NCBI RefSeq assembly: GCF_902809835.1
Contig: NZ_CADDWM010000014.1
Coordinates: forward strand, 248,001-312,000
DNA: 64,000 bases
Source of the DNA: Agromyces sp. Marseille-P2726
Lineage (GTDB): Bacteria; Actinomycetota; Actinomycetes; Actinomycetales; Microbacteriaceae
Direction of reading: 5' to 3'
The notes beneath the pieces were generated by a model. The model ran no database searches. It was not told where the DNA came from and worked only from the letters and a program-made list of their open reading frames with translations. The position numbers were made by a program, and so were the translations under genes. This document shows, one piece after another, positions 29,961 through 51,051 of the stretch. Within the stretch, counting starts at the first letter, position 1, and the number at the start of each line of letters is the position of its first letter.

Positions 29961-30980
<1,020 letters not shown>

Positions 30981-33742: not shown

Positions 33743-34507
33743 ATGCTCGAAGACGTGTACCGCAGCATCGCTCGCCAGTGGCGGGTGCTCGTCGTGGTGG
33801 CATCCCTCGTCGCGGTCGCAGCCACCGTGCTCGGCCTCATCTGGCCCGACCGGTACACCGCGACGGCCTCCGTCACGGTCGAGGCGATCCCCGCGGCCGA
33901 CGGGTCGACGCCCGACGTCAACATGGAGACGCAGCGGCTCATCGCGCGGTCGACCGAGGTGCTCTCCATCGCGGTCGACGAGATCGAGGACACGTCCGTC
34001 TCGGGCCTCCGGAGCCAGTTGGAGGTGACGATCCCTCGAGGCTCGCAGGTACTCGAGTTCCGCGTGACCACCGGCGACGCGGAGCGCTCCGCCGAGCTCG
34101 CGAACACCATCGCCACGGCGTACCTCGACCAGCGGACGGCCGCCGCGCAGCGACGCATCTCGGAGGCATCCGACGCGCTGGCGTCGACCGCCGAGGAGCT
34201 TCGCGCGCAGCTCGCGGCCCTGGAACCCGAGAATCCGCTGAGACTCTCCCTCGAGGGTCAGGTCCGCGCCCTCGACACCCAGCGTGCGGTGCTCATCGCG
34301 ACCTCGATCAACGCGGGCTCCCTCATCGATCCGGCGACGCCCCCCGAGGATTCCAACACCCCGGGCCTGTACGTCTTCGTCGGCGCTGGCATCTTCCTCG
34401 GGCTGTTCGTCGGGGCCTTCGTCGCCCTCATCTGGGACCGCGTGAAGGAAAGCCGCCGGCCCCGTGCGGCGCGGGGCGACGCCGAGAAGCGCGTCACCGA
34501 GGGCTGA
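33743..34507 (+). CDS. Wzz-like polysaccharide chain-length determinant
   Basis: A 254-residue protein from ATG 33743 with GGAGGGAG 6 nt upstream. A transmembrane helix at residues 17-35 (VLVVVASLVAVAATVLGLIW) and a second at about 210-232 flank a periplasm-side coiled region with repeated Ala/Glu heptads (RISEASDALASTAEELRAQL). This is the Wzz topology. No Walker motif is present, so it lacks the tyrosine-kinase domain that many actinobacterial Wzz-like proteins carry. It lies between the split GH16 gene (divergent) and the 14-gene operon (convergent, 14-nt overlap at the ends). It should set polymer length for this locus. Confidence 0.85.
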   Translation: MLEDVYRSIARQWRVLVVVASLVAVAATVLGLIWPDRYTATASVTVEAIPAADGSTPDVNMETQRLIARSTEVLSIAVDEIEDTSVSGLRSQLEVTIPRGSQVLEFRVTTGDAERSAELANTIATAYLDQRTAAAQRRISEASDALASTAEELRAQLAALEPENPLRLSLEGQVRALDTQRAVLIATSINAGSLIDPATPPEDSNTPGLYVFVGAGIFLGLFVGAFVALIWDRVKESRRPRAARGDAEKRVTEG

Positions 34508-35381
34508 GGACTTCCGCTCCCCAGAGCTCCTCGGCGATCTCCACCGTCGCACGGATGTGCTGCGGCGTGGATGCGCCGAACACCACGGAACGGATCTGCG
34601 GGCGCTCGCGCACCCACGTCAGCGCCTCACGTGGCGGAATGGCACCCGACGCGAACACCGACATCGCCACCGGCCGGAACTCGCGCGTCGCGAGCACGTC
34701 GTCGTACGCATGCATGCCGCCCGATACCCGGAATGCCAGCTTGTTCATGTTCGAGCACACGATGGGGTCGTCGATCCCAGCCCGCTCGAGCGCGTCGACC
34801 GCCATCGGCAGGTTCATCGTGATGAACCCCGGCTCCGCGCCGTACCGCGACCGCACATGCTCGGCGAAGATCGAGAACGCGGCATCGAACCGCAGGCCGA
34901 GGAGCAGGTCGACCACGATGTTCTGGAGGAACACCACGGGCGTCGCCAGGCCGTGGAACATCTTCATCTCGGCGTCCACGAGGAGCGTGATGAGCCCTTC
35001 GATGTCCTTGCCCGCGAGCGACCTTCCGCCGCGGAGCGCCGCGTTCATGAATCCTTCGTCGGGCAGGAAGCTCCGAAGCGCGCCCATCATGCCGAGTTCG
35101 GTGACGGCGTTCGCATACTTGTGGGCGTACGGCATGCACGGCAGGAAGGCGAACCCGGGGTAGTCGGCGGGATGCTCGCGGACGTGGTCGCAGACCTCCC
35201 CGATCCGCTCGTGCGTCGTGCACATGAACGAGCGCACACCGGCCTCGACGGCGTCGTCGATGACCTCGATGATCGCCGAGGTGTCCTGGAAGCGGAGCGC
35301 GCTCGCGTGCGCCCGCTCCTCCGACATGTGGTTGACGCCGAAGAACTGGTTGTCGCCGAGCAGGAGCCGGTCGAGCGTCAT
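34494..35381 (-). CDS. Aldo/keto-reductase-like TIM-barrel protein, unknown function
   Basis: A 295-residue protein from ATG 35381, coupled to the upstream oxidoreductase by a 4-nt ATGA overlap. The N-terminus LLLGDNQFFGVNHMS and the C-terminal IRSVVFGASTPQHIRATVEI resemble the ends of aldo/keto reductases (the GASTPEHI NADP loop). The catalytic Asp/Tyr/Lys/His set is not evident; the middle has FMCTTHERIGEVCDHV and FAFLPCMPYAHKYANAV. It could be a diverged reductase or a barrel that binds sugar. It is the last gene of the exopolysaccharide operon. Its final 14 nt overlap the end of the Wzz-like gene, antisense. Confidence 0.65.
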   Translation of the reverse strand: MTLDRLLLGDNQFFGVNHMSEERAHASALRFQDTSAIIEVIDDAVEAGVRSFMCTTHERIGEVCDHVREHPADYPGFAFLPCMPYAHKYANAVTELGMMGALRSFLPDEGFMNAALRGGRSLAGKDIEGLITLLVDAEMKMFHGLATPVVFLQNIVVDLLLGLRFDAAFSIFAEHVRSRYGAEPGFITMNLPMAVDALERAGIDDPIVCSNMNKLAFRVSGGMHAYDDVLATREFRPVAMSVFASGAIPPREALTWVRERPQIRSVVFGASTPQHIRATVEIAEELWGAEVLSPR

Positions 35382-36484
35382 CGGGTCCTCCTTCGCGCTC
35401 GGGTGAAGAGTCGACGGTCGGGGCGAGCGGCTGGGGCCGCCACGTGACGGGGTTCGTCGGTCGACGGCCCGCGCGCGAACCGCTCGATGAGGCGATCGGT
35501 TGCGGCGGCGCTGGCGAAATCGTTGACCGGTTCGAGCGCGGGCGAGCCGGTCTTGGCCGCTGCGACCGATCGCACGAAGTGGTCGATCTGCGCGCTGTAC
35601 TCCTCGCCGCGCAGGTAGTACCACACCGACGGCGTGAGCGTCGTCGTGTTGATGCTGTTCCACCCGACCCGGTACCCGTCGGGCACCTCGGCGGTGTCGC
35701 GGAAGTAGATCTCGCACTCCTGCCGATCGGCGATGATCTTGCCGCGTTCGCCCCAGAGCGTCATCTTCGTCGACATCTTGCGGTACGACTCGTCGGACCA
35801 GTTCACCGAGAGCTGGGCGCTGGCATCGTCGGCGTACCGCAGCGTTCCGTAGACCTCGTCGTCCGCCTCAGCCGAGAAGTCGCGCCCGAGCACGGTGCCG
35901 GTCACCGTCTCGGGTTCGCCCAGGTACCAGCACAGGAGGTCGAGGGGGTGCGCCGCGTAGTCGTAGAGGGCGCCACCGCCCGCGGTCTTCCTGCTCCGCC
36001 ACGTCTCGCCCTTGGGGCGCAGCACGACCGGCCCGTACGCCTCCGCGAGGACATGGCTCACGCGTCCGATCGCGTGCAGGTCGAGCAGGCGCTTCACCTC
36101 CCGGAACGTGCCGACGAACCGGTTGTGGTAGCCGACCTGCGTGACCAGGCGCGCGTCGGTCGCGGCATCCGCCAGCATGGCCGACTCGGCCGCCGTCAAC
36201 GTGAGCGGCTTCTCGCAGAACACGTGGATGCCGCGGTCGAGCGCGTCGCGGACCAGTACGACGTGCGACGCCGACGGCGTGGCGATGAGCACCGCGTCGG
36301 GGTGCTGGTCGAACAGGTCGGCCGAGTCGCTGAACTTGCGGAGGCCCGTGTACTTCTCGAGCACGTCGAGCAGGTACCCCATGGAATCGCAGACGCCGAC
36401 GACCTCGACATCGGGATGCGCCCCGAGGATCGCCAGGTGGGAGAGCCCCATCTTGCCCGCACCGATGACTCCGACCCTGATCAC
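35378..36484 (-). CDS. Gfo/Idh/MocA-family oxidoreductase
   Basis: A 368-residue enzyme from GTG 36484 (GTGA overlap with the previous gene's stop). GVIGAGKMGLSHLAIL is the NAD(P) loop; HVFCEKPLTLT carries the conserved Lys of the CEKP motif. A C-terminal substrate domain follows (GGGALYDYAAHPLDLLCWYL). Such enzymes oxidise or reduce sugar nucleotides, inositols or related polyols. Inside this operon it could make an unusual sugar or inositol-type alcohol. Basic C-terminal tail (RRLFTRARRRTR). Confidence 0.9.
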   Translation of the reverse strand: MIRVGVIGAGKMGLSHLAILGAHPDVEVVGVCDSMGYLLDVLEKYTGLRKFSDSADLFDQHPDAVLIATPSASHVVLVRDALDRGIHVFCEKPLTLTAAESAMLADAATDARLVTQVGYHNRFVGTFREVKRLLDLHAIGRVSHVLAEAYGPVVLRPKGETWRSRKTAGGGALYDYAAHPLDLLCWYLGEPETVTGTVLGRDFSAEADDEVYGTLRYADDASAQLSVNWSDESYRKMSTKMTLWGERGKIIADRQECEIYFRDTAEVPDGYRVGWNSINTTTLTPSVWYYLRGEEYSAQIDHFVRSVAAAKTGSPALEPVNDFASAAATDRLIERFARGPSTDEPRHVAAPAARPDRRLFTRARRRTR

Positions 36485-37116
36485 AGCGACCCCCTGACTG
36501 CAGACGACGATGTCACCGAGTGCCCCCATCGAGGGGGCGTCTGCGTGCCCCGCGACGGTTGCTGCAGGATCACCCGGATCGAACGCGCCATCCGGCGCAC
36601 TCGCGCTCGCGCTGCGAGACGCGACGGCGGCGTCGCGAGCACCGCGGTCGCGGCGGCGATGCCCGGCGTCGGCGGCGGCGTCAGCGCATGGGTCGCCACG
36701 CGGCCGTCGAGCATCGCGTCGAGGTAGCCCCACAGCCGTTCTCTCGAGGTCGCCCGGTGCACCGCCCCGAGTTGCTCGGCCCGGTCGGTGAAGATGAGCT
36801 GGTGCTCGTCGACCACCTCCTCGTGCACCGGAACGCGCGGCACCACGACGGGCACGCGCCCGATCGCACGCATGTCCATCACCCCGCCGGCCCCGCCCTG
36901 AAGCACCACGGCGTCGGCGGCGCGGCACAGCTCGAGGAGCTCGTGGTACGGGAGCACGTCGTGGTTCTCGGCGCCCGGAACGGGCCTGCCGGGGCCGTGC
37001 TGCACGATCACGCGCACGTCGGCGTGGGCGCCGACCCACGGTTCCATCCAGGCTCCCAGTCGATCGAACGGGAGGTGGTAGCTTCCCGCGCTGACGACCA
37101 CCAGTTGCTCGCTCAC
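36481..37116 (-). CDS. PssE-like glycosyltransferase subunit (GT28 C-terminal type)
   Basis: A 211-residue protein from GTG 37116, overlapping the PssD-like stop by 4 nt. LVVVSAGSYHLPFDRLGAW at the N-terminus and CRAADAVVLQGGAGGVMD, RVPVVVPRVPVHEEVVDEHQ in the middle match the GT28/Alg13-like nucleotide-sugar-binding half. The C-terminal tail (about 60 residues) is basic and variable. It pairs with the PssD/Alg14-like membrane subunit encoded immediately upstream to make one functional glycosyltransferase. Confidence 0.88.
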   Translation of the reverse strand: MSEQLVVVSAGSYHLPFDRLGAWMEPWVGAHADVRVIVQHGPGRPVPGAENHDVLPYHELLELCRAADAVVLQGGAGGVMDMRAIGRVPVVVPRVPVHEEVVDEHQLIFTDRAEQLGAVHRATSRERLWGYLDAMLDGRVATHALTPPPTPGIAAATAVLATPPSRLAARARVRRMARSIRVILQQPSRGTQTPPRWGHSVTSSSAVRGSL

Positions 37117-37562
37117 AACACCACTCCGATCACGTCGGCGTCGGGATAGACCTCGCGCAGCGACTCCCACTGCACGAGGAATCGGTCGGCGAAGGGGTAG
37201 ACGAGGCGTCCGCTGAGCGACGCGGTCGTGATTCGGTCGACGGGTTCGAGGAAGACCGTGGTCGCCCCGTACCGGTGCGCCTGCATGAAGAACGGCAGCG
37301 CGATCGCCGCGCCGGTGCTGAACACCAGGTCGGGACGCGTGTCGGCGAGCACGCGACGCGCGAGCCCGAAGTTCCGCACGAGGTTCGGCAGGTTCCGCAC
37401 CGTCGGGTAGTGCGCTTCGACGACGTGCTCGCCGACGAGCCGCGACCGCGCGTCCTCGGTGGGCAGCGTCACCCAGGTGCGGTCATGCGCCCCCCACCAC
37501 GCTCGGAGCGAGAGTGCCTGGGTGAGGTGGCCACCCGACGAGCAGACGATGAGCACCCGCAT
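37113..37562 (-). CDS. PssD/Alg14-like glycosyltransferase subunit
   Basis: A 149-residue protein from ATG 37562. CSSGGHLTQALSLRAWW is the Alg14/PssD start; DLVFSTGAAIALPFFMQAHR and VFLEPVDRITTASLSG follow. In this family the Alg14-like partner anchors the catalytic Alg13/PssE-like partner at the membrane. Tightly coupled to both neighbours (2-nt gap upstream, 4-nt overlap downstream). Length is normal. Confidence 0.9.
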   Translation of the reverse strand: MRVLIVCSSGGHLTQALSLRAWWGAHDRTWVTLPTEDARSRLVGEHVVEAHYPTVRNLPNLVRNFGLARRVLADTRPDLVFSTGAAIALPFFMQAHRYGATTVFLEPVDRITTASLSGRLVYPFADRFLVQWESLREVYPDADVIGVVL

Positions 37563-37564
37563 GG

Positions 37565-38488
37565 TCAGATCCCCTTCCCGAACCGGGCCGCGACCCGCGT
37601 GACCTGTCGCGGGGTGACGAGCCTCGCCGCGATGAGCAGGGCGAGGTAGGACTTCACCTGGGTCGGAGAGTGTCGCAGGGAGCGGCGGGCCCATCGGGCG
37701 CCGTCCCTCTGGCGTGCCGCTGACGCGCGTGCGAACGCGATCTGCGACTCGATCCGTGCGATGGCGCGGTCGCTGCGGCCGAAGGCGGGATGCTTCGCGA
37801 GCAGGTACTCGAGGGCGTCCGCGTAGTCGTTCCAGCGTCCGAAGAAGTACGACTGCCCCTGCCAGGTCACGCGCACGAACGGTCGGTCGACGACGTGGAC
37901 GGCACCGAGCTCCGACGTGCGCAGGAGGATGTCGTAGTCCTCTCCGTAGCTGCGCGGCAGCTCCTCGTCGATGAGGCCGATCTCGTCGAGCAGCGCCGAA
38001 CGCCGGAACAGGAAGCTCGAGGAGTGCAGTCCGGCGAGGCGGTCGTGCAGGAGCATGTCGTGCGTGACCCAGTCGGAGCCGACGAGGCGTTCATGCTCAC
38101 GGGTGCCGTCGTCGACGACCATCGCGGTCCCCACCAGCGCGGCCTCGGGGTTCGACCTGATCGCCCCGACCTGGGTCGCGAGCTTGCCGGGCAACCAGAC
38201 GTCGTCGTCGTCGAGGAAGGCGACGAGCTCGTGGCGTGCCGCGAGGATGCCCGTGTTCCTGGCGCCGGCGAGCCCCCGGCTGCGCTCGTTGACGACGCCG
38301 CGAAGGGCGCGCCGGGCTCGGAGGTCGACGGCGGGCAGCACGGGCTCGCAGGCGTCGAACACCACGACGACCTCCACGTCGCCGGCGTACTCCTGGTCGA
38401 GGATGCTCTGCACCGCGCGCCGCATCAGCTCGGGTCGCTCGTGCGTCGGCACGACCGCGGTCACGGGTGGCAACGACATGGTGCTCAC
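37565..38488 (-). CDS. Family 2 glycosyltransferase
   Basis: A 307-residue GT-A enzyme. GTG 38488 overlaps the flippase stop by 4 nt (GTGA); ATG 38479 is an equally possible start. VVPTHERPELMRRAVQSIL, AFLDDDDVWLPGKLATQV (the DxD metal motif) and YGEDYDILLRTSELG (catalytic region) are clear. No membrane helix, so it probably acts at the cytoplasmic face of the membrane on the lipid-linked repeat unit. Confidence 0.9.
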   Translation of the reverse strand: MSTMSLPPVTAVVPTHERPELMRRAVQSILDQEYAGDVEVVVVFDACEPVLPAVDLRARRALRGVVNERSRGLAGARNTGILAARHELVAFLDDDDVWLPGKLATQVGAIRSNPEAALVGTAMVVDDGTREHERLVGSDWVTHDMLLHDRLAGLHSSSFLFRRSALLDEIGLIDEELPRSYGEDYDILLRTSELGAVHVVDRPFVRVTWQGQSYFFGRWNDYADALEYLLAKHPAFGRSDRAIARIESQIAFARASAARQRDGARWARRSLRHSPTQVKSYLALLIAARLVTPRQVTRVAARFGKGI

Positions 38489-40014
38489 CCCGCCTGCATC
38501 GATCGATCGACCAGCCTGCGAAGGCCGGGCGCCTCCCGCCACAGTGACTCGATGCCGAGCCGCCTCCGAAGCACCCAGAGCACGGCGGCGTACACGAGCC
38601 CGACGCCGATCACCCCGCCGATGAGGGCGCTGGCGGACGTGCCGAACGCCAGCCGGGCGACGCCGAGGCCGACCCCGAAGACGATCACCGGCACGGCCAT
38701 CGCGGGGACGAGGGGCCTCAGGTAGGGGCCCACGCGCATCCGTCGGTGGACCTGCCAGGCGGCGATCGCCGTGTCGAGCAGGACGATGACCGCCCAGGTC
38801 ACGGCGGCGCCCATGATCCCGAGCACGGGCACGAGCAGCAGGTTGAACGCGACGCTCGCGGCGAGCACCACCGACTTGTTGCCGACCTGCCAGCTGCTGT
38901 GGCCGCCCTGGAGGATGATGCTCTGGAGCATGCCGGCGCTCGACGCGACCATCATCGCGCCCGCGAGGATGACGAGTGGCGCTGCACCCGACTCGAAGCC
39001 GGGTCCGAACAGCCCGAGGATCGCCGGGCCCATGATCGCGAGCGTGAGGTAGAACGGCCAGCTGATGAGGATCATCGCCCGGGTCACCGACGTGTGCAAT
39101 GCTCGGGTCGCCGACGACTCGCCGCGGGCGAGCAGTCGTGAGATCGTCGGCGTCACCGCGATGCGCATCGAGTGATCGACCACCTGACCCGCACGCACGG
39201 TACGGGTCACGATCGCATACACGCCGGCCTCGGCGGGCGAGGTCAGTGCCGCGACGATGAGCACGTCCGACCACTCGAGCAGGATCTCGAGCGACCCGCC
39301 GACTGCTCGCGCGGAGCTGAATGCCCAGAACCGGCGAGTCGCCACGGGAAGCGTCTCGAGTGCGTCGGCGCGCCGCCGCCAGTCCTGCACGAACGGACGC
39401 GCCAGCAGGGCGACGGCCACGACCAGCCAGACCGGAATGGCCCAGAGCCACGCCGCGAAGCTGCTGTAGGCCGAGCCGATGGCGAGCACCGCGAGGACGA
39501 CGGCCCCCAGACGGGCGATCGGATAGGCGATCGCGTGCGCCGCGGTGTAGGTGACGATGCCATCCAGCATGCGGGAGGACATCTGGAGGACCGCGAGCAC
39601 CGCTCCCGCGGGGATGAAGGGCGCCATGAGCCGCAGGTACCCCTCGAACTGTTCGCTCCCGCCGGGGGCCACGAGCCACCCGGCGAGCCATGGGGCCGAC
39701 CACCACAGCACGGCGGCGACGAGCGTCGACAGCACTGCGACGGGTACCGCGGCGATGAGGATCGTACGCCACGCCTCACCCCGGCGCCCGAACGCGTGCT
39801 GCTCGGACACGGTCCGCACGATCCCGCTGTTCGTTCCGAGGCGCAGCACCTGGCTCGCGATGGTGAAGACGCCGACCGCCTGGAAGAACAGGCCGGTGCC
39901 GTAGGTCCCGAGGGCGTTGCCCACGACGAGTGCGACGGCGAAGGCGGCGGCCGCGGCGACGACCGAGCCGACGAGGCCGAGCAGGCCGCTCTGCGCCAGG
40001 CGTTCAGTTCGCAT
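38485..40014 (-). CDS. Wzx-like lipid-linked oligosaccharide flippase
   Basis: A 509-residue membrane protein with 12-14 hydrophobic segments of the polysaccharide-biosynthesis (MOP) flippase superfamily. SVVAAAAAFAVALVVGNALG at the N-terminus and GYLRLMAPFIPAGAVLAVL are typical. It should translocate the undecaprenyl-linked repeat unit across the membrane. Overlaps the polymerase gene by 11 nt. Confidence 0.88.
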   Translation of the reverse strand: MRTERLAQSGLLGLVGSVVAAAAAFAVALVVGNALGTYGTGLFFQAVGVFTIASQVLRLGTNSGIVRTVSEQHAFGRRGEAWRTILIAAVPVAVLSTLVAAVLWWSAPWLAGWLVAPGGSEQFEGYLRLMAPFIPAGAVLAVLQMSSRMLDGIVTYTAAHAIAYPIARLGAVVLAVLAIGSAYSSFAAWLWAIPVWLVVAVALLARPFVQDWRRRADALETLPVATRRFWAFSSARAVGGSLEILLEWSDVLIVAALTSPAEAGVYAIVTRTVRAGQVVDHSMRIAVTPTISRLLARGESSATRALHTSVTRAMILISWPFYLTLAIMGPAILGLFGPGFESGAAPLVILAGAMMVASSAGMLQSIILQGGHSSWQVGNKSVVLAASVAFNLLLVPVLGIMGAAVTWAVIVLLDTAIAAWQVHRRMRVGPYLRPLVPAMAVPVIVFGVGLGVARLAFGTSASALIGGVIGVGLVYAAVLWVLRRRLGIESLWREAPGLRRLVDRSMQAG

Positions 40015-41374
40015 GCGCGCCTCCCCTCAGCGGGTCTCGCCGCCAGAGCGTCGACGACGGGAGGTACCGCTCGCGCAGCAGGAGGCCGAGGATGAGGCAG
40101 ATGGCGAGCAGGTGGCGATCGAGTCCGTAGAAGACCGCCACGACACAGGAGCTCACGACCGCGGCATGCAGCCACAGCGCGATCGTGTTGGGGGCGGCAG
40201 CCGTGCGGATCACGCCCCCGATGAGGAACCACGCGAACAGCGCGAGCCCCACGAATCCGAAGCAGAACATCGTGTTCCAGAGCGTGCCCTGGGTGCCGAC
40301 GGTGATCTCGCTCGTGAGCGACGGCCGCGGTGAGCCGAACCCGAGGATCGGCGATTCGAGCGTGCGCGCGAACGTCTCGTCGTAGAGCAGGCTGCGCCCG
40401 GTCGTGGTGTCCGCGACCTCCTGTCGGGCGACGATCGCCTCGACCGCGCCCGAGGCGGAGAGCAGGAACACGACTCCCGAGCTCAGGATGCCCACCACTA
40501 CGAAGGCGACCCACCGCCCCCGCAGCAGGAGCCGCACCGAGACATACGCGACGCCGATGATCAGTCCGAGGAACAGACCCCGGTTGCTCGATGCCACGGC
40601 CGGCGGCACCGCGAGTCCCGCCATGGCCAGGAACCAGCCGAAGGCGTTGACCGTGCCGCGTTCCAGCGCCGCGGCGATCGCAGCGGGAGTCAGGATGACG
40701 AGCGAGGCGCCCCACCCGTTCGCATAGGGGAACGGCGCCGACGGCCGCACGAACGGCTCCTCGGCGCCCCAGGGATCCTGCACCTCCGAGAACCCGGGGA
40801 ACACGAGGTCCTTCACGTACTCGTTCTCGAGCACGGATGCCGGGAGCACGCGCCCGATCGTCAGGGTGAGTTCTCCGTCGGGCCAGATCATGCCGAGGTA
40901 GCCGCAGACGATGATGAACCCCCACGTGAAGCTCAGGGCGGTCAGGACGCGTCGGACCGACAGCGACCGTGGCGCATTGAGGAGGTAGACCAACGCGATG
41001 GCGATGCCCGCGAACTGCGTGAACCGCATGCCGAAGCCGACGACCCGGCCGAGCGAGTCGAGCATGAGCGCGCAGGGGAGCATCCACACGACGAAGGCGA
41101 GCCATGGGATCGTGCCGGGCACGATCGACACACGGCCGCGCTGGATCAGATACGCCACCATCGGCACCGACATGATCTGCAGGTAGAACGGCAGCAATCC
41201 GAACGCCCACCACGCGGGCATGCCCCAGAGCAGCACGAGCACCGGCCACGCCGGGAGCTCCTTCCGCGCGGCAGGCCCCGTCGACGTCGGGGGTCGTCGC
41301 GAGGTCGCGAGGGCCGGCGACGGAGGAACCGACGTCTCCGACATCGGCACCGCGACTCGGGTGGCGGTCGACAC
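40004..41374 (-). CDS. Wzy-like O-antigen polymerase/ligase family protein
   Basis: A 456-residue membrane protein with about 11 hydrophobic segments and a large extracytoplasmic loop (about residues 160-220, AEEPFVRPSAPFPYANGWGA; O-antigen-ligase-like motif VASSNRGLFLGLIIGVAYV after it). A second loop near VADTTTGRSLLYDETFA resembles the catalytic loop of Wzy/WaaL proteins. It should polymerise repeat units on the outside. It lies between the CDP-alcohol transferase (3-nt gap) and the flippase (11-nt overlap). Confidence 0.85.
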   Translation of the reverse strand: MSTATRVAVPMSETSVPPSPALATSRRPPTSTGPAARKELPAWPVLVLLWGMPAWWAFGLLPFYLQIMSVPMVAYLIQRGRVSIVPGTIPWLAFVVWMLPCALMLDSLGRVVGFGMRFTQFAGIAIALVYLLNAPRSLSVRRVLTALSFTWGFIIVCGYLGMIWPDGELTLTIGRVLPASVLENEYVKDLVFPGFSEVQDPWGAEEPFVRPSAPFPYANGWGASLVILTPAAIAAALERGTVNAFGWFLAMAGLAVPPAVASSNRGLFLGLIIGVAYVSVRLLLRGRWVAFVVVGILSSGVVFLLSASGAVEAIVARQEVADTTTGRSLLYDETFARTLESPILGFGSPRPSLTSEITVGTQGTLWNTMFCFGFVGLALFAWFLIGGVIRTAAAPNTIALWLHAAVVSSCVVAVFYGLDRHLLAICLILGLLLRERYLPSSTLWRRDPLRGGAHAN

Positions 41375-41377
41375 GCG

Positions 41378-42115: not shown

Positions 42116-42140
42116 CTGTCCATCCCCCTCGGCGGGCGGA

Positions 42141-45100
42141 TCATCGCACGGCCGTGAGCGTCAGCTCGAAGCTCGCGTCGGGCGTCGACCGGTAGTTCAG
42201 GTGGGTCGAGGCGGCCAGCACGTTCTGCCCGGCCACCAGCAGCGAGACCGGCACCTGCACGACGACGGGGTTGGCGTTCGCCGTGGTGGTGCGCGGCGCC
42301 GCCGTCGCGTAGGTGTTCTGGCCGAGCGTGCCGGTCGGCATGTTGCCGCGTGCGATCTCGGTGCCGTTCAGGTACACGACCACGCCGTCGTTGGCGATCA
42401 CGCTCACGGTCGCGGTCGCGAACTCGTTCGGATCGCTCACCGTGAACTGGTGCCGGAACTGCGCGCTGAGTGGCCGCGGGGATGGCGCGCCGACCGAGAT
42501 GTCGGTGCCGAGCGCCGATCCGAAGCCGAGCGGCGCGCCGCCCGTCGACCACCCGGAGTCGTCGTATCCCGGCTGGTTCCACGCGGCATCCCACGCCGTC
42601 GAGAGGTACTGCCACCGCCACTGGCTCCCCGCAGCGACGAGCGTGGCGTTCGGATTCGTCGGCTCACTCGCCGTCGTCGCCTGCGCCGTTCCCGGCGCCG
42701 AGAGGCGACCCGCCCCGTCGATCGCGACGACCGAGTACGAGTAGGTCGTCTCGGCGGTGAGGCCCGTGTCGGTGAACGAGGTGCCCGGGGCATCCACGCG
42801 CGTGATCTCCGTGCCGTTGCGCGACACCACGTATTCGTCGATCGACGCGGGTGACGGATGCGTCCACGACAGCTGCACCGACGACGCACCCGTCGCCGTC
42901 GCCGTCACGGTGGGCGGGGCCGGCGCCTGGCTCGTGCCGCGCTTCGCGTTGAATCGCAGGTCGAAGCTGGCGTCGGGCGTCGAACGGTAGTTCAGGTGCG
43001 TGGATGCCGCGACCACGTTCGTGCCGGCGACGAGGAGCCCGTCGGGCACCGCGAACTCGACGCGGTTCGCCGAAGCGGTCGAGGTGCGTGGTGCCGCCGT
43101 CGCGAACGAGTTCTGCGTCAGCGTTCCGGTGGGCATGTTGCTGCGCCCGATCTCGACGCCGTTGACGTACACGACGACGCCGTCATCGGCGACGACCGAG
43201 ATGACGCCGTTCACCACGGTCGCCGGATCGGTCACGTTGAACGACCTTCGGAACTGGGCGCTGAGCGGTCGTGGCGAAGGCGCTCCGACCGAGATGTCGG
43301 TCTGGATGAGCGAGGAGTTGAAGCCCAGGAACGACGGACCCTGCGACCACGAGGAGTCGTTGAACCCGCGGTCGTTCCATCCCGGCTGCCATGCCGCAGA
43401 CGTGTACTGCCAGCGCCAGGTGTCGCCCGTGACCACGAACGTCAGGTCGTCCGCCGACGGCGGTGCGACGAGCACGACCGTCGTCGTCGCGGAGCGGTTG
43501 CCCGCGGCATCCACGGCCCGCACGAAGTAGCGCGTCGGGGTGGTCGCGACGGGCACGGTCATCTCGGTGGCCGTCGTCGTGCCGATGGCCTTGTTGTCGC
43601 GGATCACCTCGTACCCGGTGACGCCGCGATTGTCGCTCGACGCCGACCAGCTGAGCAGCGCGGTCGTGCCGTTCACCGGCGTCGCCGAGGCACCGCCCGG
43701 TGTCGACGGTGCCGCGGAGTCGCGCATGGCGAAGCGGGTGAAGCCGCCGGCCCACTGGTTGACCTGGGCTGCCCGAGTCGAGAAGGCGAGGTCGCCGCCG
43801 ACCCAGAGCGTTCCCGTGGAGTCCTGGAAGAGGGCCCAGACGCCGAAGCCCCGGCGAGCCTGCGTGATGGGGTTGAAGTCGGCGATGTACCTCCCGGTCG
43901 CGGCATCCCACGCCCCGAACAGGTTGATGCTGTCGCCCTGGGTCCAGTTCGAGCCGATGTTGCTCCACGTGTAGGCGTCCTGGTAGGAGAAGTCGCCGCA
44001 GTGGCACCCGGCGAACACGGTGTCGGTGTTCGCCTCGACGACCTGGAAGTCGCCGCCGGCCTTGGTGATGCTGCCGCTCACCCGACTGAAGGTGTTCCGG
44101 TCGTACCCGAAGAGGCTGTGCTCGGAACCGCCGACGAAGACCCGACCGCTCGATTCGGCCACGCCGAGCTGCCAGCCGCGCGTCGGGTCGGTGGTGCTGA
44201 ACGTCGGTACCCACAGCGGCTGCGCCAACGGGGCGCCGGCCGCCGACGTGAACGCCGCGGAGTTGGGCGTCGAGGTCGAACCGCTCTGCTTGAAGTACCC
44301 CGAGAAGTACGCGCGTGCCCCGTCGGTCGCGGCTTCGATGCCGACGCTCGTGCCGTTGAGGTTGGGGTTCCAGTTGGTGTCGGGAGCGCCGGCAGCGAGG
44401 TTGATCCGGCCGCCGTTCCACGAACTCGACGTCACGCCGCCGGAGCCCACGAGGTGCGTGAACGCGCCCGACAGGTAGAGGTTCTGCCCGTTGACCGACA
44501 GACCGCGCACCTGAGCGGCACCGCCGGCCGTCCGGTTCTCGGCGTCGACCTGCCAGCCCGTCGTCGCACCCGTCGTCGCGTTGACGATGACGAACGCCGA
44601 TCGAGCGGCGCCGTTGGCCTGCGAGAACTGCCCGCCGACCGCGAGTCGGCCGTCGGGTAGGGCGGCGAGGGCCTTCACCTGGTTGTTCAGCACCGGCTGG
44701 AAGCCCGGGATGAACTCGCCGGTGTTGACGTCGAACGCGGCGAGGAAGTGCCGCTCGACCTTGTTCGAGCCGGTCGCGTTGAGTGTCCGCTGCACGAACT
44801 GGAAGTTGCCGCCGACGTACACCCGGCTGCCGATCTGCGCGAATGCCGAGACCTCGGTGTTGAGCTCGCCGTCGACGCCGTTCGCCTGCCCGGTGACGCC
44901 CCACACCGTCGGGCGGGCGTCGCTGTCGGGCATCGCGCGCAACGTCTGCGCAGGAGCGCCGGCGTCGGGAATGGCCGCGAAGGTCATCTGCGAGATGCGA
45001 AGCCGCGGCCGCAGGTACACCTGCGTGAACGGAATCGCGTTGCCGGCACCGTTCGTCGCCGAGTAGAGGTATGACGAGGCGGCGTTCTGCCCGGCGACCG

Positions 45101-45803
45101 AGGAGCCGTACCCGAAGCCGCCGACCCAGCCCTGCGCCTGGCGGACGTTCGTGTCGACCCGGCGGAACTGCGTGTTGTTGCCGAAACTGTTCGTCGTGCC
45201 GCCCGAGCCGGTCGTCGTGTCGAATCGCCAGCTGCCGACGGGGTGCTCACCCCGGAACGTCCAGATCCAGCGGTCGCGCCTCGGCATCGCGAAGCGAACC
45301 TCCTGCCAGGTCGTGCCGGTCGAGTTCGTCGCGCGGCGCAGCCGCACGCCGTCCGTGAGCGCGCTGACGGCGCCGTTGTTCAGCAGTCCGTCGACCGTCA
45401 GCGCCGGAAGCTGCGCGACGAGGAACGCGTTCTGCCCGGTGACGGTGGTTCGGAGGATCTCCGGCGTGCGCAGGCCGTTGTAGTTGTTCTTCCATCCCTC
45501 GCGACCTCGCCCGACGAGCACCCACCCGCCGCCGTCGGTGGTCATGTCGCAGTAGAACTCCGCGGGCGCCTTGAGGGCCGGGGTGAGCAGCCAGTAGATC
45601 CCGTCCGTGGACGCCGGATAGTTCTGCTTCGCCTCCCAGCACGAGCCCGCGGCCGTCAGCGAGGTCTTGCCGTCGGGCAGCGGATCGGCCGCCGTACTCG
45701 GGGTGGCGGTGAACATCAGCAGGGATGCCGCCATCACCGCCGATGTGCCGAGGGCGAGCGCAGCCCGCCTGATGTGTCCCGTTCGACGGGTCGCTGTGTT
45801 CAT
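42141..45803 (-). CDS. Secreted fibrinogen-like / propeller-like / FN3 multidomain protein
   Basis: A 1220-residue exported protein from ATG 45803. Signal peptide residues 1-38 (ending PSTAA). A fibrinogen-like domain at about 40-275: AEFYCDMTTDGGGWVLVGRG, WKNNYNGLRTPE. A region of repeated YVGGNF/LAVGGQF/YLSGAF-type blades, about 295-690, which looks like a beta-propeller. FN3-like about 693-785; then a beta-rich domain about 785-945 (GDTWRWQYTSAAWQPGWNDR, DDGVVVYVNGVEIGRSNMPT); FN3-like about 950-1045; and a second copy of the beta-rich domain about 1050-1220. No anchor is seen at the C-terminus. It is inside the polysaccharide operon, so it probably binds or organises the polymer at the surface, a lectin-like role (inference). 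The open frame continues upstream of the ATG but overlaps the next gene in another frame. Confidence 0.85.
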   Translation of the reverse strand: MNTATRRTGHIRRAALALGTSAVMAASLLMFTATPSTAADPLPDGKTSLTAAGSCWEAKQNYPASTDGIYWLLTPALKAPAEFYCDMTTDGGGWVLVGRGREGWKNNYNGLRTPEILRTTVTGQNAFLVAQLPALTVDGLLNNGAVSALTDGVRLRRATNSTGTTWQEVRFAMPRRDRWIWTFRGEHPVGSWRFDTTTGSGGTTNSFGNNTQFRRVDTNVRQAQGWVGGFGYGSSVAGQNAASSYLYSATNGAGNAIPFTQVYLRPRLRISQMTFAAIPDAGAPAQTLRAMPDSDARPTVWGVTGQANGVDGELNTEVSAFAQIGSRVYVGGNFQFVQRTLNATGSNKVERHFLAAFDVNTGEFIPGFQPVLNNQVKALAALPDGRLAVGGQFSQANGAARSAFVIVNATTGATTGWQVDAENRTAGGAAQVRGLSVNGQNLYLSGAFTHLVGSGGVTSSSWNGGRINLAAGAPDTNWNPNLNGTSVGIEAATDGARAYFSGYFKQSGSTSTPNSAAFTSAAGAPLAQPLWVPTFSTTDPTRGWQLGVAESSGRVFVGGSEHSLFGYDRNTFSRVSGSITKAGGDFQVVEANTDTVFAGCHCGDFSYQDAYTWSNIGSNWTQGDSINLFGAWDAATGRYIADFNPITQARRGFGVWALFQDSTGTLWVGGDLAFSTRAAQVNQWAGGFTRFAMRDSAAPSTPGGASATPVNGTTALLSWSASSDNRGVTGYEVIRDNKAIGTTTATEMTVPVATTPTRYFVRAVDAAGNRSATTTVVLVAPPSADDLTFVVTGDTWRWQYTSAAWQPGWNDRGFNDSSWSQGPSFLGFNSSLIQTDISVGAPSPRPLSAQFRRSFNVTDPATVVNGVISVVADDGVVVYVNGVEIGRSNMPTGTLTQNSFATAAPRTSTASANRVEFAVPDGLLVAGTNVVAASTHLNYRSTPDASFDLRFNAKRGTSQAPAPPTVTATATGASSVQLSWTHPSPASIDEYVVSRNGTEITRVDAPGTSFTDTGLTAETTYSYSVVAIDGAGRLSAPGTAQATTASEPTNPNATLVAAGSQWRWQYLSTAWDAAWNQPGYDDSGWSTGGAPLGFGSALGTDISVGAPSPRPLSAQFRHQFTVSDPNEFATATVSVIANDGVVVYLNGTEIARGNMPTGTLGQNTYATAAPRTTTANANPVVVQVPVSLLVAGQNVLAASTHLNYRSTPDASFELTLTAVR

Positions 45804-45819
45804 GATCAGCCTCGTCCTC

Positions 45820-46506
45820 TCACCCGCAGGTCGCGCCGTCGGGGATTTCGTGGGTGGACAGTCGCCAGAGGCCGTCGACGTAGACGGCTCCGTACAGGTG
45901 CACGACCGGGTGGCCCGGTCGGTAGAGCTGGTCGGCGACCGACTCACCGTTCGCGTCGAGCACGTCGAGGTCGCTCGTGTCGATGCAGACCTCGAGCACG
46001 GCCGTCGGAGGCGACGCCGCGAGGTCGATCGACTGCACGTCCACACTCGTGACGGTGGCCTCGCCGGTCTGCGTGTAACCGAGGTGCTCACGCTCGATCG
46101 CGAGCGCCTGGACCTCGCCCTCGACGAAGCCGGTCGCGACGGACTCGATGCCCTCGAAGCCGCCGTCGCCGCGCTGCAGCACCTCGTTGGTGGCCGCGAT
46201 GAGCGTCTCCACGCTGGTGACGACGGCTTCGCTCGCCTCGGCTTCATCGCCCAGGGGCGCCGGTGTCGGCATGGGGTACTCGAGCGGCGGGGGAGGCGGC
46301 TCCTGCTCCTCCTGCAGCGCGGCGTCGACGGGTTCGGTGCCGTCTTCCGGCGGTGGCGCGGCCATCCTGGCGATGCCGAATCCCGCGGCGACGACCGCGA
46401 GCCCGACGACGCCGGCGATGATCCAACGCAGCGGCCGAGGCCGCCGCGGGGGCTTCGGAGTCTCGGTCCAGTCCTCGGGCATCGGCTCGAGGTCCGACTC
46501 GGTCAT
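45820..46506 (-). CDS. Single-pass membrane protein with extracytoplasmic domain
   Basis: A 228-residue protein from ATG 46506, overlapping the fcl stop by 4 nt. The N-terminal 27 residues are cytoplasmic, then a transmembrane helix ([20 protein letters not shown]). A Pro/Glu-rich spacer ([19 protein letters not shown]) leads to a folded domain ([20 protein letters not shown] through the C-terminus, with two Cys that could form a disulfide). It looks like an NTF2/NTF-like outer domain, low confidence. It sits between fcl and the giant secreted protein and may link the polymer machinery to the envelope. Confidence 0.7.
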
Positions 46507-47498
46507 GGCGCACCTCCTGCGACGGACGGGGACGGGGCCTCGACCCGGGCCAGCTCGGCCATGTACTCCGCGTACGTGCGGCGGAGCCCGTCGGCGAGGG
46601 CGATCGACGATGTCCAGCCGAGGCGGTTGAGGCGCGAGACGTCGAGGAGCTTCCGCGGCGTTCCATCGGGCATCGACGGGTCGAACGAGACCAGCCCGTG
46701 GAAGCCGACGACCTCGGCGATGAGGTCGGCGAGTTCCCGGATGGTGAGGTCGGTGCCGCTGCCGACGTTGATGGAGATGCGGTGATCGCCGACCGTGGCC
46801 TCGTACTCGGCGCGGGGGCACTCCATGACGAAGACGCTCGCGGCCGCGAGGTCGTCGACGTGCAGGAACTCCCGCCGGGGAGTGCCCGTGCCCCAGACGA
46901 CGACTTCGTGCGCGCCGCTGACTCGTGCCTCATGGAACCGGCGGATGAGGCCCGGGATGACGTGACTGTTCAGGGGGTGGTACCGGTCGCCGGTGCCGTA
47001 CAGGTTGGTCGGCATCACCGCGCGGTAGTCGCGGCCGAACTGCGTTCGGAGGCTCTCGCAGAGCGAGATGCCCGCGATCTTCGCGATCGCGTACGCCTCG
47101 TTGGTGGGTTCGAGCGGCCCGGACAGCAGGGCTTCCTCGGCGATCGGCTGCGGCGCGTACTTCGGGTAGATGCACGACGAGCCGAGGAACAGCAGTCGCT
47201 CGACCCCGAAGTCGTGCGCGGCGCGGATGACGTTGGCCTCGATCATGAGGTTCTCGTACGCGAATTCGGCGGGGTACGTCGCGTTCGCATGGATGCCGCC
47301 GACCCGTGCCGCGGCGAGGTACACCTCGTCGATGGCCTCGGCGGAGAAGAAGGCCCGCACGGCGGCCTGATCGGTGAGGTCGAGTTGCGAACGGGTACGG
47401 GTGACGACCTCGCCTCGACCGAGCCCCGCGAGTCGCCGCGCGATCGCGGAGCCCACCATTCCGGTGTGGCCGGCCACGTAGATCCGAGGTCTGGCCAT
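46503..47498 (-). CDS. fcl: GDP-L-fucose synthase
   Basis: A 331-residue SDR-type enzyme from ATG 47498. [16 protein letters not shown] is the NADPH loop, [12 protein letters not shown] follows, [13 protein letters not shown] contains the catalytic Ser, and the YAIAKIAG motif holds Tyr-x3-Lys. [20 protein letters not shown] completes the family signature. It epimerises and reduces GDP-4-keto-6-deoxy-mannose to GDP-L-fucose. It follows gmd with a single-nucleotide gap; the pair gives the complete pathway from GDP-mannose. Confidence 0.97.
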
Positions 47499-47499
47499 G

Positions 47500-48621
47500 T
47501 CAGGCCTCCACCGGGATCAGTGCCGGATAGCCCAGCGACCGCAGGAGCGCCTGCTGCTCCGCGGCGGCGAAGTCGACGGACATCATCTCGGAGCACAGCT
47601 CGCTCGCGCCGATCTCGGGCAGCCACCCGAACTCGTGCCGGGCCTTCGACGCATCCCCGAGCAGGGTGTCGACCTCGGTCGGGCGGTAGTAGCGCGGGTC
47701 GACCCTCACGATGACATCACCGGCGTGGACGCCGGGCGCCTGCGAACCGATGACCTCGTCGACCACGCCGACCTCGTCGAGGCCCGAGCCCTCGAAGCGG
47801 AGCGTGATCCCGACCTCCTCGGCGGCCCACCGGGTGAACTGGCGTACCGAGTGCTGCACCCCACTCGCGATGACGAAGTCCTCGGGGGTCTCTCGCTGCA
47901 GCATCATCCACTGCAGTCGCACGTAGTCGCGGGCGTGGCCCCAGTCGCGCCGCGCGTCGAGGTTGCCGAGGTAGAGGCACCGCTCGAGGCCTTGAGCGCA
48001 GTTGGCGATGCCACGCGTGATCTTCCTGGTCACGAAGGTCTCGCCGCGCCGGGGTGACTCGTGGTTGAACAGGACGCCGTTGCAGGCGAACATGCCGTAG
48101 GCCTCGCGGTAGTTCACCGTGATCCAGAAGGCGAACAGCTTGGAGACGGCGTAGGGCGAGCGTGGGTAGAACGGCGTGGTCTCGCGCTGCGGCGTCTCCA
48201 TCACCTTGCCGAACAACTCCGACGTCGAGGCCTGGTAGAAGCGGACGCGGTCGGTCATCCGCAGGAGCCTGATCGCCTCGAGCAGGCGAAGCGTGCCGAG
48301 GCCGTTCACGTCGGCCGTGTACTCGGGCTCCTCGAAGCTCACGGCCACGTGCGACTGCGCGGCGAGGTTGTAGATCTCGTCGGGCTCGACGTCACGGACG
48401 ATGCGCGTCAGGTTCGTCGCATCGGTGAGGTCGCCGTGGTGCAGGATGAGCCGGCGGTGCTCGGCGTGGGGATCCTCGTAGAGGTGGTCGATGCGCTGCG
48501 TGTTGAACTGCGACGAGCGCCGCTTCAGGCCATGCACCTCGTAGCCCCGCTCGAGGAGGAACTCCGCGAGGTACGAGCCGTCCTGACCCGTGATCCCGGT
48601 GATCAGCGCTCGCCTGGGCAT
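47500..48621 (-). CDS. gmd: GDP-mannose 4,6-dehydratase
   Basis: A 373-residue SDR enzyme from ATG 48621 (TGATG junction with the upstream stop). [57 protein letters not shown] and [16 protein letters not shown] (Tyr-x3-Lys) are diagnostic of Gmd. [16 protein letters not shown] and [14 protein letters not shown] follow. It converts GDP-mannose to GDP-4-keto-6-deoxymannose, the Fcl substrate. No GDP-mannose pyrophosphorylase gene lies in the window, so GDP-mannose must come from elsewhere. Confidence 0.97.
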
Positions 48622-49112
48622 CAGTGCACGCCCTCCGCTCGAGCCGAGGCCTCGGCGTCGTCGGCGAGCACCGCGAGGGCGCGACGGAGGATCGTGCTCG
48701 AGGTCGTCATGGTGTACGGGAAGTACACGACCTCGACGCCGACGGCCGCGAACCGCCGCTCGAGGCGCCTGCCGCGCTCGGTGCCCTTCCAGTCCCCGCC
48801 CTTGAAGTACACGTCGAACCCGACCGCCCGCCAGGTGTCGAGCTTGTCGAGTTCGGTCTCGGCGACCGCATCGTCGACGTACCTCACGCTCCGCACGATC
48901 TCGATCCGCTCGTTGAGGGGGACGACCGGCAGTGATCCCTTCGTCGCACGCAAGACCTCGTCGGAGACCACGCCCGCGATCAGGAAGTCGCACTCGTTCC
49001 GCGCGTGCTTCAGGATGTTGAGGTGTCCGACGTGGAACAGGTCGAACGCGCCGCCCGCGTATCCGACGCGTCCGTCAGTCGGGCGCTCGCGGATGAGGCG
49101 TCGATCGGTCAT
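48621..49112 (-). CDS. Nucleotidyltransferase of the cytidylyltransferase (TagD/RfaE-C) type
   Basis: A 163-residue protein from ATG 49112, TGATG-coupled on both sides. [18 protein letters not shown] is the HxGH CTP/ATP-binding motif, [11 protein letters not shown] the substrate segment, [25 protein letters not shown] and TTSSTILRR match the last motif (ISTTxIxR). TagD relatives activate glycerol-3-phosphate with CTP, RfaE-C relatives activate heptose-phosphate; which applies here cannot be decided. The presence of a CDP-alcohol transferase in the same operon favours a CDP-activated alcohol. Confidence 0.88.
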
Positions 49113-50632
49113 CAGTACGCTCCGTCCCCTCGCAGGACGACGCGCAACGTGCGCCAGATCAGCATGAGGTCGCCCGTCAGCGACCAGTTCTCGACGTAAT
49201 AGAGGTCGAGCCGCACCCCCTCGTCCCACTCCAGGTCGCTGCGCCCGCTCACCTGCCACAGACCGGTGAGGCCCGGCTTGATCAGGAGGCGCCGATGCAC
49301 GTGCCCCTCGTACTCCTCGACCTCGCAGGTGAGCGGAGGACGTGGGCCGACCATGCTCATGTCACCGCGGAGCACGTTGAACAGCTGCGGCAGCTCATCG
49401 AGGGAATGCCGCCGCAGGAATCGGCCGACGGAGGTGACGCGCGGGTCGTCGTGCAGCTTGAAGAGCGGTCCCGACCCCTCGTTGAGCGCCGCGAGCGCCC
49501 GCAGCCGTTGGTCCGCGTCGGGCACCATGGTGCGGAACTTCAGCATCCGGAACGTGCGTCCGTCGCGCCCGACGCGATCCTGCGCGTACAGGATGGGCCC
49601 CGGTCCGTCGAGCCGGATCGCCACGGCGATCGCGAGGAGGACGGGCGCGATCACCAGCAGCCCGAGGCTCGCCGCCACCAGGTCGAAGCCGCGCTTCAGC
49701 GCGTGCTTCCCGCCCTCGAACTGAGGGATCTCGACCTGGATGAGCGGCAGTCCCTCGACCGGATGGAAGTGGATCCGCGGACCGGCCACGTCGGTGAGCG
49801 GACTGGAGAGCACCAGTTCGGCCCCGCTGCCTTCGAGCTGCCAGCTCAGCTCCCGGATGAACTCGCTGTCACCTGGCGTTCGTCCGGCGATGATCACCGC
49901 TTCGGCGCCGAGCTCGCGCGCCCGGTCGCCGACGTCCGGGATGGCCGCGACGACGGGGACACTCGTGCCGCCTTCATCGAAGAACGGATGACTCGGGGAG
50001 TTCGTCGCGACGCCGATCACCCGGTAGCCGACGCCACGGCGCTCGCCGATGCGGTGCACGACGTATTCGGCGTCGCTGGCCTCGCCGACGACGATGGCGC
50101 GAGCGAGGTACTTGCCCATTCGGCGCTGGGCGAGCAGCCACTTGCGCCAGAGCCAGCGCTCGAGCAGCAGGCCGAACAGCCCGACGGGAAGGGCGATGAG
50201 CACGAACGTCCGGGTCAGGTGCAGCCCCGCGACGAGCACGATCAACGCGAGGATGCCGAACTCGAACACCGTGGCGGTGGCGATTCGACGGTACTCCAGG
50301 GCGCCCATGCCGAGCACGCGGTCATCACGCGTGTGGGACGACGCGATGCACGCAAGCCAGGTGATGGCCGTCAAGCCGGCGATCGCCGCGTACTGCGACC
50401 TCGAGGCGCTCAGGACGGCGGGTTCGGTCGCGGGGCCGCCCGCCGTCGCCGTCGCGATGCTCGCGAAGACGACCGCCGTGTCGGTCGCGGCGAGTCGCCA
50501 ACGGATGGGCCGCACCCAGAAGGCGGCATTACCTCGGGCGACGGTGACACGTCGGCGAATCGCGCGCCCGCTCTCGACCGCAGTCGCCGAGGGGGCGAAC
50601 GGGGCTGCATCCGTCATTCTGGCCGACGTCAT
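49112..50632 (-). CDS. Polyprenyl-phosphate sugar-phosphate transferase (priming glycosyltransferase)
   Basis: A 506-residue enzyme. ATG 50632 is chosen (GGAG 7 nt upstream); ATG 50662 or 50617 are alternatives. Several N-terminal membrane helices are followed by a central Rossmann-like domain (ARAIVVGEASDAEYVVHRI). The bacterial sugar transferase domain from KRGFDLVAASLGLLVIAPVL comes next, with LKFRTMVPDADQ, HSLDELPQLFNVLRGDMSMV and KPGLTGLWQVSGRSD (catalytic motifs). It places the first sugar phosphate on undecaprenyl phosphate and starts the repeat unit. First gene of the 14-gene operon. Confidence 0.93.
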   Translation of the reverse strand: MTSARMTDAAPFAPSATAVESGRAIRRRVTVARGNAAFWVRPIRWRLAATDTAVVFASIATATAGGPATEPAVLSASRSQYAAIAGLTAITWLACIASSHTRDDRVLGMGALEYRRIATATVFEFGILALIVLVAGLHLTRTFVLIALPVGLFGLLLERWLWRKWLLAQRRMGKYLARAIVVGEASDAEYVVHRIGERRGVGYRVIGVATNSPSHPFFDEGGTSVPVVAAIPDVGDRARELGAEAVIIAGRTPGDSEFIRELSWQLEGSGAELVLSSPLTDVAGPRIHFHPVEGLPLIQVEIPQFEGGKHALKRGFDLVAASLGLLVIAPVLLAIAVAIRLDGPGPILYAQDRVGRDGRTFRMLKFRTMVPDADQRLRALAALNEGSGPLFKLHDDPRVTSVGRFLRRHSLDELPQLFNVLRGDMSMVGPRPPLTCEVEEYEGHVHRRLLIKPGLTGLWQVSGRSDLEWDEGVRLDLYYVENWSLTGDLMLIWRTLRVVLRGDGAY

Positions 50633-50744
50633 CGTCGGCTCCGAAGGGCGCACGCGCCGCATTCGTTCGGCGCTGAGAGTCGGGTTCGAGCGATCGGCGA
50701 GTCGGCTCGCCGACGCGGAGTGTTCACGGTCGGCCTGTTTCGGG

Positions 50745-50840
50745 TTTACTGCGGGTAAAGCCGCCTACTCGCCCGGGTGGGTACCCCGGGCAGTCCCGGG
50801 CGGGTAATCCCGGGCTGGGTGCGGAGCCGGTAATGCTCCG
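50745..50840. promoter_or_regulatory. Array of four GGTA-centred inverted repeats
   Basis: GGTA cores at 50754, 50780, 50803 and 50829 (spacing 26, 23, 26 nt). Each is flanked by symmetric arms: TTTAC/GTAAA and GCGG/CCGC, CCCGGG/CCCGGG, CCCGGG/CCCGGG, and GCGGAGC/GCTCCGC. The similar spacing, a little over two helical turns, suggests multiple copies of one protein-binding site, 120-210 nt before the first operon gene. Confidence 0.5.
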
Positions 50841-50941
50841 CCGGAGGGAATGCGAGCACCCTCTCCGGCTGTAGTCCGCGAACATCTGAGAAAAACTCTG
50901 GTTCGCACGTTTGAGAATACGGCTTCACGAGAGGCGCACCC

Positions 50942-50959
50942 AGTCCCCCTAAAGGGGGA
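50942..50959. promoter_or_regulatory. Palindromic hairpin in the operon upstream region
   Basis: GTCCCCC (50942-50948) and GGGGGAC (50953-50959) pair around TAAA. Possible operator or RNA hairpin; no partner is known. Confidence 0.35.
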
Positions 50960-50995
50960 CCGAATGCTCCTCTCGAAGATCAGGGGCGCTCCACC

Positions 50996-51031: not shown

Positions 51032-51051
51032 CGCATCGTTACCGTGTGGTC

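Follow-up and report, generated by a model that had tools for sequence, protein, structure and literature searches.

The DNA analysed here is a 64,000-nucleotide stretch of the genome of Agromyces sp. Marseille-P2726 (3.56 Mb, 99.67% complete), namely positions 248,001 to 312,000 of contig NZ_CADDWM010000014.1, which we call the window (about 70% GC). Within it, 14 minus-strand genes that together span 34494-50632, and whose junctions range from −11 to +25 nt, form an exopolysaccharide-type operon (Table 1). Three of them, encoding a cytidylyltransferase-like nucleotidyltransferase (NTase), a CDP-alcohol phosphotransferase (CDP-OH) and an apparently secreted beta-propeller protein, belong to a conserved module that is hosted by many exopolysaccharide-type loci, the fucose-type operon of the window being one host. 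An initial annotation of this DNA had already delineated the 14-gene operon, which our analysis bore out, and its NTase, CDP-OH and Gfo/Idh oxidoreductase genes lie where it had placed them, with matches to PF01467, PF01066 and PF01408, respectively. It missed the propeller partner, whose gene is directly upstream of CDP-OH, as well as the eukaryote-type Glu/His pair of CDP-OH described below. The long open reading frame at 42141-46247 resolves into two genes, one for a small membrane protein and one for the propeller protein. The starts of the family 2 glycosyltransferase (38479) and pssE (37116) genes were taken from reading the sequence together with candidate starts. A scan of 50500-51100 found no sigma-70-type promoter or terminator, and searching the whole window for tRNAs and for Rfam families at the gathering threshold gave no matches.

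The NTase/CDP-OH pairing is real and recurs mostly without fucose genes. Among 394 Actinomycetes genomes (E ≤ 1e-12 for CDP-OH, E ≤ 1e-22 for NTase), CDP-OH was detected in 50 and NTase in 56, and all 50 genomes with CDP-OH (50/50) also carried the NTase (p = 4e-57; the co-occurrence statistics ignore phylogeny), so that the cross-genome check suggested in the initial annotation came out far above chance for these two families. For the 49 pairs outside the window's own genome, the two genes were less than 2 kb apart in 27, 2-25 kb apart in 16, further apart in two and on different contigs in four. Similarly, 47 of 150 genomes from the same family carried a strong NTase match, 46 carried CDP-OH and 45 carried both; this NTase count leaves out ten weak matches (E about 1e-13 to 1e-15) among the 57 obtained, by a cut-off set after the gap was seen. 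The gene content of module loci varies widely, which would suit the explanation that these genes are neighbours merely because exopolysaccharide loci collect unrelated modules, yet the complete co-occurrence of the pair and its close spacing in 27/49 cases make that explanation highly improbable. Across 80 named loci (each up to about 20 kb; our own gene caller recovered the NTase in 74), all three families stood together in 19, including loci of Streptomyces griseus, Arthrobacter agilis, Frigoribacterium faeni, a Leifsonia and a Clavibacter strain.

The NTase scored well above the PF01467 cut-off of 21 bits and carries HVGH at residue 27, which we take to be the HxGH motif of this family, and it fell below the cut-offs for both TagD (TIGR01518, 61.3 of 165.4 bits) and RfaE domain II (rfaE_dom_II, TIGR02199, 75.3 of 181.5 bits). 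Its closest solved chains were 3elb (ethanolamine-phosphate cytidylyltransferase), 5x3d (titled phosphoenolpyruvate phosphomutase) and 1coz (TagD). The CDP-OH protein, with 245 amino acids and a six-helix membrane fold in its predicted model, has an intact superfamily motif at residues 94-119 (DSADGQLAR, eight residues, GEWLDHVID; fitting DxxDGxxAR...GxxxDxxxD), as do 58 of 60 homologue calls, the other two being dropped from later work. A Kennedy-type Glu/His pair (G-E-x-x-D-H-x-x-D) was present in 58/58 motif-bearing calls and in 49/49 from the named loci, two counts that are not summed because the named loci partly repeat the same genomes, and in 0/26 other actinobacterial CDP-OH family proteins. 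This pair is common to the eukaryotic choline/ethanolamine phosphotransferases CHPT1 and CEPT1, which have ten transmembrane helices (PMC10182977, PMC10156783), whereas the module's enzyme is bacterial, six-helix in its model and encoded in exopolysaccharide loci. In alignments, archaeal AF2299 (4o6m) and IPCT-DIPPS (4mnd) are without the pair, and 4mnd includes its cytidylyltransferase in the same chain, whereas here a separate PF01467 protein is encoded. NTase and CDP-OH are co-conserved and their motifs are consistent with synthesis and use of a CDP-alcohol, and to this extent the initial annotation was upheld.

In two genomes, a degenerate second NTase-like gene without the full HxGH lies directly before the CDP-OH gene (Table 1) and is perhaps a regulatory or scaffold copy. 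Separately, a record titled Caulobacter sp. S45 (L221) holds an NTase 70% identical to that of the window, reflecting contamination or transfer.

Homologues of the propeller protein recur across NTase loci. Its N-terminus looks signal-peptide-like by eye, and the AlphaFold model of its propeller domain (pLDDT 70) resembles WD40-type propellers, the 50 matches listed in a fold search being generic propellers. A profile of the domain, derived from 22 proteins in genomes with NTase loci and hence biased towards them, found the full-length domain in 59/394 genomes at E ≤ 1e-80, a cut-off set after two tiers were seen (116/394 at 1e-30, 59 at 1e-80). These include 48 of the 50 CDP-OH genomes, and one of the remaining two (G494) has a cut-off propeller gene beside CDP-OH at a contig end. 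The propeller gene lay within 25 kb of CDP-OH in 46/50 genomes and within 5 kb in 24/50. In the 12 loci of the window's type it directly precedes CDP-OH at a spacing of −4 to 185 nt, four of these loci showing a 4-nt overlap, and in two loci (L118 and L119) it shares a 4-nt overlap with the NTase gene; gene starts behind the overlaps in other loci come from our own gene caller. What the data show directly is the joint occurrence and clustering of the three families, along with the motifs and predicted folds given above.

Table 1. Genes of the operon, neighbouring genes in the window and features of other loci (prefix L). Positions without a prefix refer to the window.
Feature	Position	Strand	Evidence or remark
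Polyprenyl glycosylphosphotransferase, starts lipid-linked repeat unit	49112..50632	-	TIGR03025 419.7 bits, cut-off 295.55; PF02397
Cytidylyltransferase-like NTase, core module, proposed CDP-alcohol maker	48621..49112	-	PF01467 59.7 bits
GDP-mannose 4,6-dehydratase gmd, locus-specific	47500..48621	-	TIGR01472 566.5 bits, cut-off 415
GDP-L-fucose synthase-like fcl, locus-specific	46503..47498	-	NF047922 489.2 bits, cut-off 500
Small membrane-anchored protein, 228 aa	45820..46506	-	one hydrophobic stretch, about residues 25-51
Secreted beta-propeller protein, 1220 aa, fn3 and fibrinogen-like regions, core module	42141..45803	-	domain matches, AlphaFold model
Six-helix CDP-alcohol phosphotransferase CDP-OH, Kennedy-type Glu112/His116, core module	41378..42115	-	PF01066 31.7 bits
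Wzy-like polymerase	40004..41374	-	label of the initial annotation; position and hydrophobic character only
Wzx-like flippase	38485..40014	-	weak spore_V_B match, 46.3 of 372.3 bits; no Pfam match
Family 2 glycosyltransferase	37565..38479	-	PF00535 80.9 bits
PssD/Alg14-like glycosyltransferase subunit	37113..37562	-	PF08660 52.2 bits; PssD NF041549 108.9, cut-off 110
PssE-like glycosyltransferase subunit (GT28 C-terminal)	36481..37116	-	PF04101 29.1 bits
Gfo/Idh/MocA oxidoreductase, optional module with the last gene	35378..36484	-	PF01408 88.8 bits
Gfo/Idh partner (last gene), possibly aldo-keto-reductase-like	34494..35381	-	60-71% identical homologues in other loci
GH16-type glycosyl hydrolase	31959-32891		just outside the operon
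Lactate/malate dehydrogenase	29961-30971		same side of the locus as the helicase
RecQ-like helicase	20967-22961		same side of the locus as the dehydrogenase
LicD-like/methyltransferase-like fusions	L128:8130-9689, L136:3263-4831, L137:8407-10035, L138:8214-9791		beside NTase, CDP-OH absent
Degenerate NTase-like genes	L130:7924-8322, L151:9820-10311		directly before CDP-OH

The remaining genes of the operon vary in how firmly they can be named and in how often they accompany the module. Within the Wzx/Wzy set of the initial annotation, the priming transferase and glycosyltransferases are clear, while the Wzx match is weak and the Wzy-like protein has no match in Pfam or NCBIfam; Wzx, Wzy_C and Wzz matches are present in some other NTase loci. 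Likewise, gmd exceeded its equivalog cut-off and fcl fell slightly under its own. In 55 sampled genomes (pieces of at most 20 kb each, family counts therefore being lower bounds), gmd and fcl were each found in 6, homologues of the small membrane protein in 8, Gfo in 9 and its partner gene in 10. These counts speak against the earlier views that the NTase/CDP-OH pair is part of a fucose polymer and that Gfo/Idh is a needed part; the proposed search for co-occurrence with gmd and fcl is answered in part, by 6/55 for each in a comparison confined to module-bearing genomes. Gfo/Idh and its partner were also considered as core genes and rejected on the same counts, although 12 of the 13 family genomes (of 150) with the partner gene carry the NTase. 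These two genes (34494-36484) nonetheless form a tight, highly conserved module of their own, with homologues 56-66% identical to the window's Gfo and 60-71% identical to its last gene. The latter had no Pfam or NCBIfam match, and no reliable match came from profile searching of the PDB (best E 0.014); from its weak matches we would guess an aldo-keto-reductase-like protein.

The GH16-type hydrolase next to the operon is a possible polymer-trimming enzyme. The helicase and dehydrogenase genes on one side of the locus are likewise present in L085, with the dehydrogenase gene adjoining the NTase there, and they possibly mark a fixed site for exopolysaccharide cassettes.

We propose, with about even confidence, that the three-gene module decorates the repeat unit of Wzx/Wzy-type exopolysaccharides with a phospho-alcohol; CTP as co-substrate, the alcohol, the acceptor and the role of the propeller are what we infer from the genes. 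The NTase would join CTP to a common alcohol phosphate, most likely sn-glycerol 3-phosphate, and CDP-OH would bind the resulting CDP-alcohol at the cytoplasmic membrane face. Glu112 and His116 would then activate an acceptor hydroxyl, most likely on a sugar of the undecaprenyl-linked repeat unit, with CMP leaving, such that the repeat unit would gain the phospho-alcohol ahead of flipping by Wzx. The secreted propeller protein may recognise, anchor or process the finished polymer.

Natural swaps of the transferase count in favour of this proposal. Six genomes of the class sample carry the NTase without this CDP-OH protein, and in four of them (G194, G241, G272 and G302) a fusion of LicD-like and methyltransferase-like parts is encoded beside the NTase, the two genes overlapping by 4 nt in three genomes (Table 1); the stretch YGALLGAIRxGxMIAHDSDTD in the LicD-like protein is presumably the LicD motif. 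G142, from the window's genus, has the NTase and propellers, with no CDP-OH found, and a gene for a CDP-glycerol-type transferase (PF04464, 96.4 bits) that lies about 20 kb away from the NTase, the propeller genes lying between the two. Loci lacking CDP-OH were the only ones in which a LicD-like or PF04464 gene stood beside the NTase, and proteins of both kinds act on glycans or polyols in described cases.

Several points weigh against decoration of the repeat unit by this module. As most described CDP-OH enzymes act on lipids, diacylglycerol is an obvious alternative acceptor. Just one of the LicD-like proteins was scored, and its match is short (27.8 bits, cut-off 22.6, over 31 residues), and PF04464 occurs in 29/46 genomes, most of them also with CDP-OH and often far from the module, so that its position in G142 may be coincidence. 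Two genomes with the NTase (G432 from the class, G129 from the family) had no transferase in the pieces examined, and 11 of the 59 full-length-propeller genomes are without this CDP-OH protein, two of the 11 having the NTase. Divergence across loci gives a mixed picture. Distance sets were limited to loci with all parts called on one piece (30 and 12 loci; one earlier set comprised 36 genomes), and three NTase calls were excluded, two of them as degenerate and one as cut. NTase and CDP-OH distances correlated weakly over 53 genomes (rho 0.22, Mantel 0.008) and with rho of only 0.10 over 30 loci, compared with 0.65 for CDP-OH and propeller, a value that dropped to 0.22 (not significant) in the eight loci with the propeller more than 3 kb away. 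In the 12 loci sharing a common Wzx family, all pairs correlated (0.53-0.88; NTase and CDP-OH, 0.79), and cassette inheritance accounts for the correlations equally well. We read the pattern as loci inherited in the form of cassettes, in which the NTase product is perhaps constant throughout and the remaining parts follow the polymer.

A specific co-evolution of CDP-OH and propeller (rho 0.71, 0.65) was considered and dropped, and the correlation is not taken as proof of contact, because the Wzx/Wzy control showed that it is cassette-wide. The same lack of specificity bears on the idea that the phospho-alcohol, or a lipid derived from it, is attached to the propeller protein itself, where it would anchor the protein in the membrane or modify its surface. 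The tight coupling of the two genes and their correlated divergence would agree with it, but in the eukaryotic relative the site is on the cytosolic side, whereas the propeller looks secreted, and inspection of the propeller ends by eye revealed no lipobox and no shared sorting tail; we consider it very unlikely.

The lipid alternative is a bacterial Kennedy pathway, in which the CDP-alcohol goes to a lipid, be it diacylglycerol or a different one, and so provides a special phospholipid head group that polymer export or anchoring would need. Enzymes acting on diacylglycerol carry this Glu/His pair, and a Bacteroidetes cluster that likewise combines a nucleotidyltransferase (NTP-transferase) with a CDP-OH enzyme has been proposed (PMC9246714) to make phosphatidylinositol from CDP-inositol and diacylglycerol, an activity given there as unconfirmed. 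That cluster contains MIPS and a HAD hydrolase (PMC9246714), whereas the loci here contain exopolysaccharide genes and a propeller. In the loci with annotated neighbours, CDP-OH is surrounded by genes for glycosyltransferases, Wzx, Wzy or Wzz, and in NTase-only genomes the partners are LicD-like or PF04464 proteins, both of which argue against a lipid acceptor and leave this pathway possible but rather unlikely.

The identity of the alcohol was approached through genes for its supply and use. The inositol-1-phosphate synthase Ino1 was searched for with PF01658, because PF07994 missed the control Corynebacterium glutamicum, which PF01658 found; it gave no match in this genome and was missing in 22 of 46 NTase-bearing genomes, the window's own included (20 of 22 in its family). 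This tells against inositol as the alcohol, as suggested in the initial annotation, and it sets the module apart from the IPCT/DIPPS inositol-phosphate system, there being no own supply of inositol 1-phosphate. The inositol may nevertheless be imported, or a polyol may come from Gfo/Idh and its partner as first proposed. The best NCBIfam matches of CDP-OH, all sub-cut-off, were archaetidylinositol phosphate synthase (49.1 of 180 bits) and DIPP synthase (28.8 of 580), the best match of Gfo was inositol 2-dehydrogenase, below its equivalog cut-off (114 of 355), and 12 of the 13 partner-bearing family genomes have the NTase. The missing Ino1 and the low counts of Gfo (9/55) and its partner (10/55) count against either source, which we regard as improbable. 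No alcohol-making gene recurs in most loci of the 55 sampled genomes, whose families are partly annotated, and given this and the lack of Ino1 here, a universal precursor is simplest. The alcohol is thus most likely glycerol, supplied as CDP-glycerol from sn-glycerol 3-phosphate, with ethanolamine phosphate, imported inositol and others as possible sources. As to its user, PF04464 had no match in this genome, and a six-frame PF04991 search (E 1e-4) found none here and in 0/28 genomes, a search that also failed to pick up the LicD-like proteins in G302 and in other genomes and is thus insensitive enough that LicD-like proteins may be present in this genome. With no PF04464 or LicD match, CDP-OH is the only candidate CDP-alcohol user found here.

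Decoration of a repeat unit with phospho-alcohol by this module would resemble known systems assembled from other parts. In LicC/LicD phosphocholine and Gct/TagF-type phosphoglycerol decoration, a small NTase makes a CDP-alcohol whose head group is moved onto a surface polymer, and in the choline case surface proteins bind the decorated polymer. The transferase here is instead a membrane CDP-OH enzyme. The Skillet-1 lipocone operons (PMC12419801) likewise join a membrane enzyme with a secreted protein, some with beta-propellers, but the enzyme is of another superfamily and no lipobox-like sequence was seen here. Our searches of open PMC full texts found no paper joining CDP-alcohol phosphatidyltransferase with Wzx or Microbacteriaceae, or DUF5122 with exopolysaccharide. 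More tentatively, we suggest that the module represents an undescribed class of six-helix CDP-alcohol:glycan phosphotransferase with a Kennedy Glu/His pair, which would place one phospho-alcohol on many exopolysaccharides and have a dedicated propeller receptor, and that it may be a counterpart, built from unrelated parts, of phosphocholine and choline-binding proteins.

Overall, our analysis proposes one testable joint function for three co-conserved gene families and shows that a widespread family of bacterial proteins carries the Glu/His pair known from Kennedy enzymes. Should the acceptor prove to be a glycan, the module would be a further route, beside the LicD and TagF types, by which phospho-alcohols are placed on surface polymers, and one that comes with candidate receptors.

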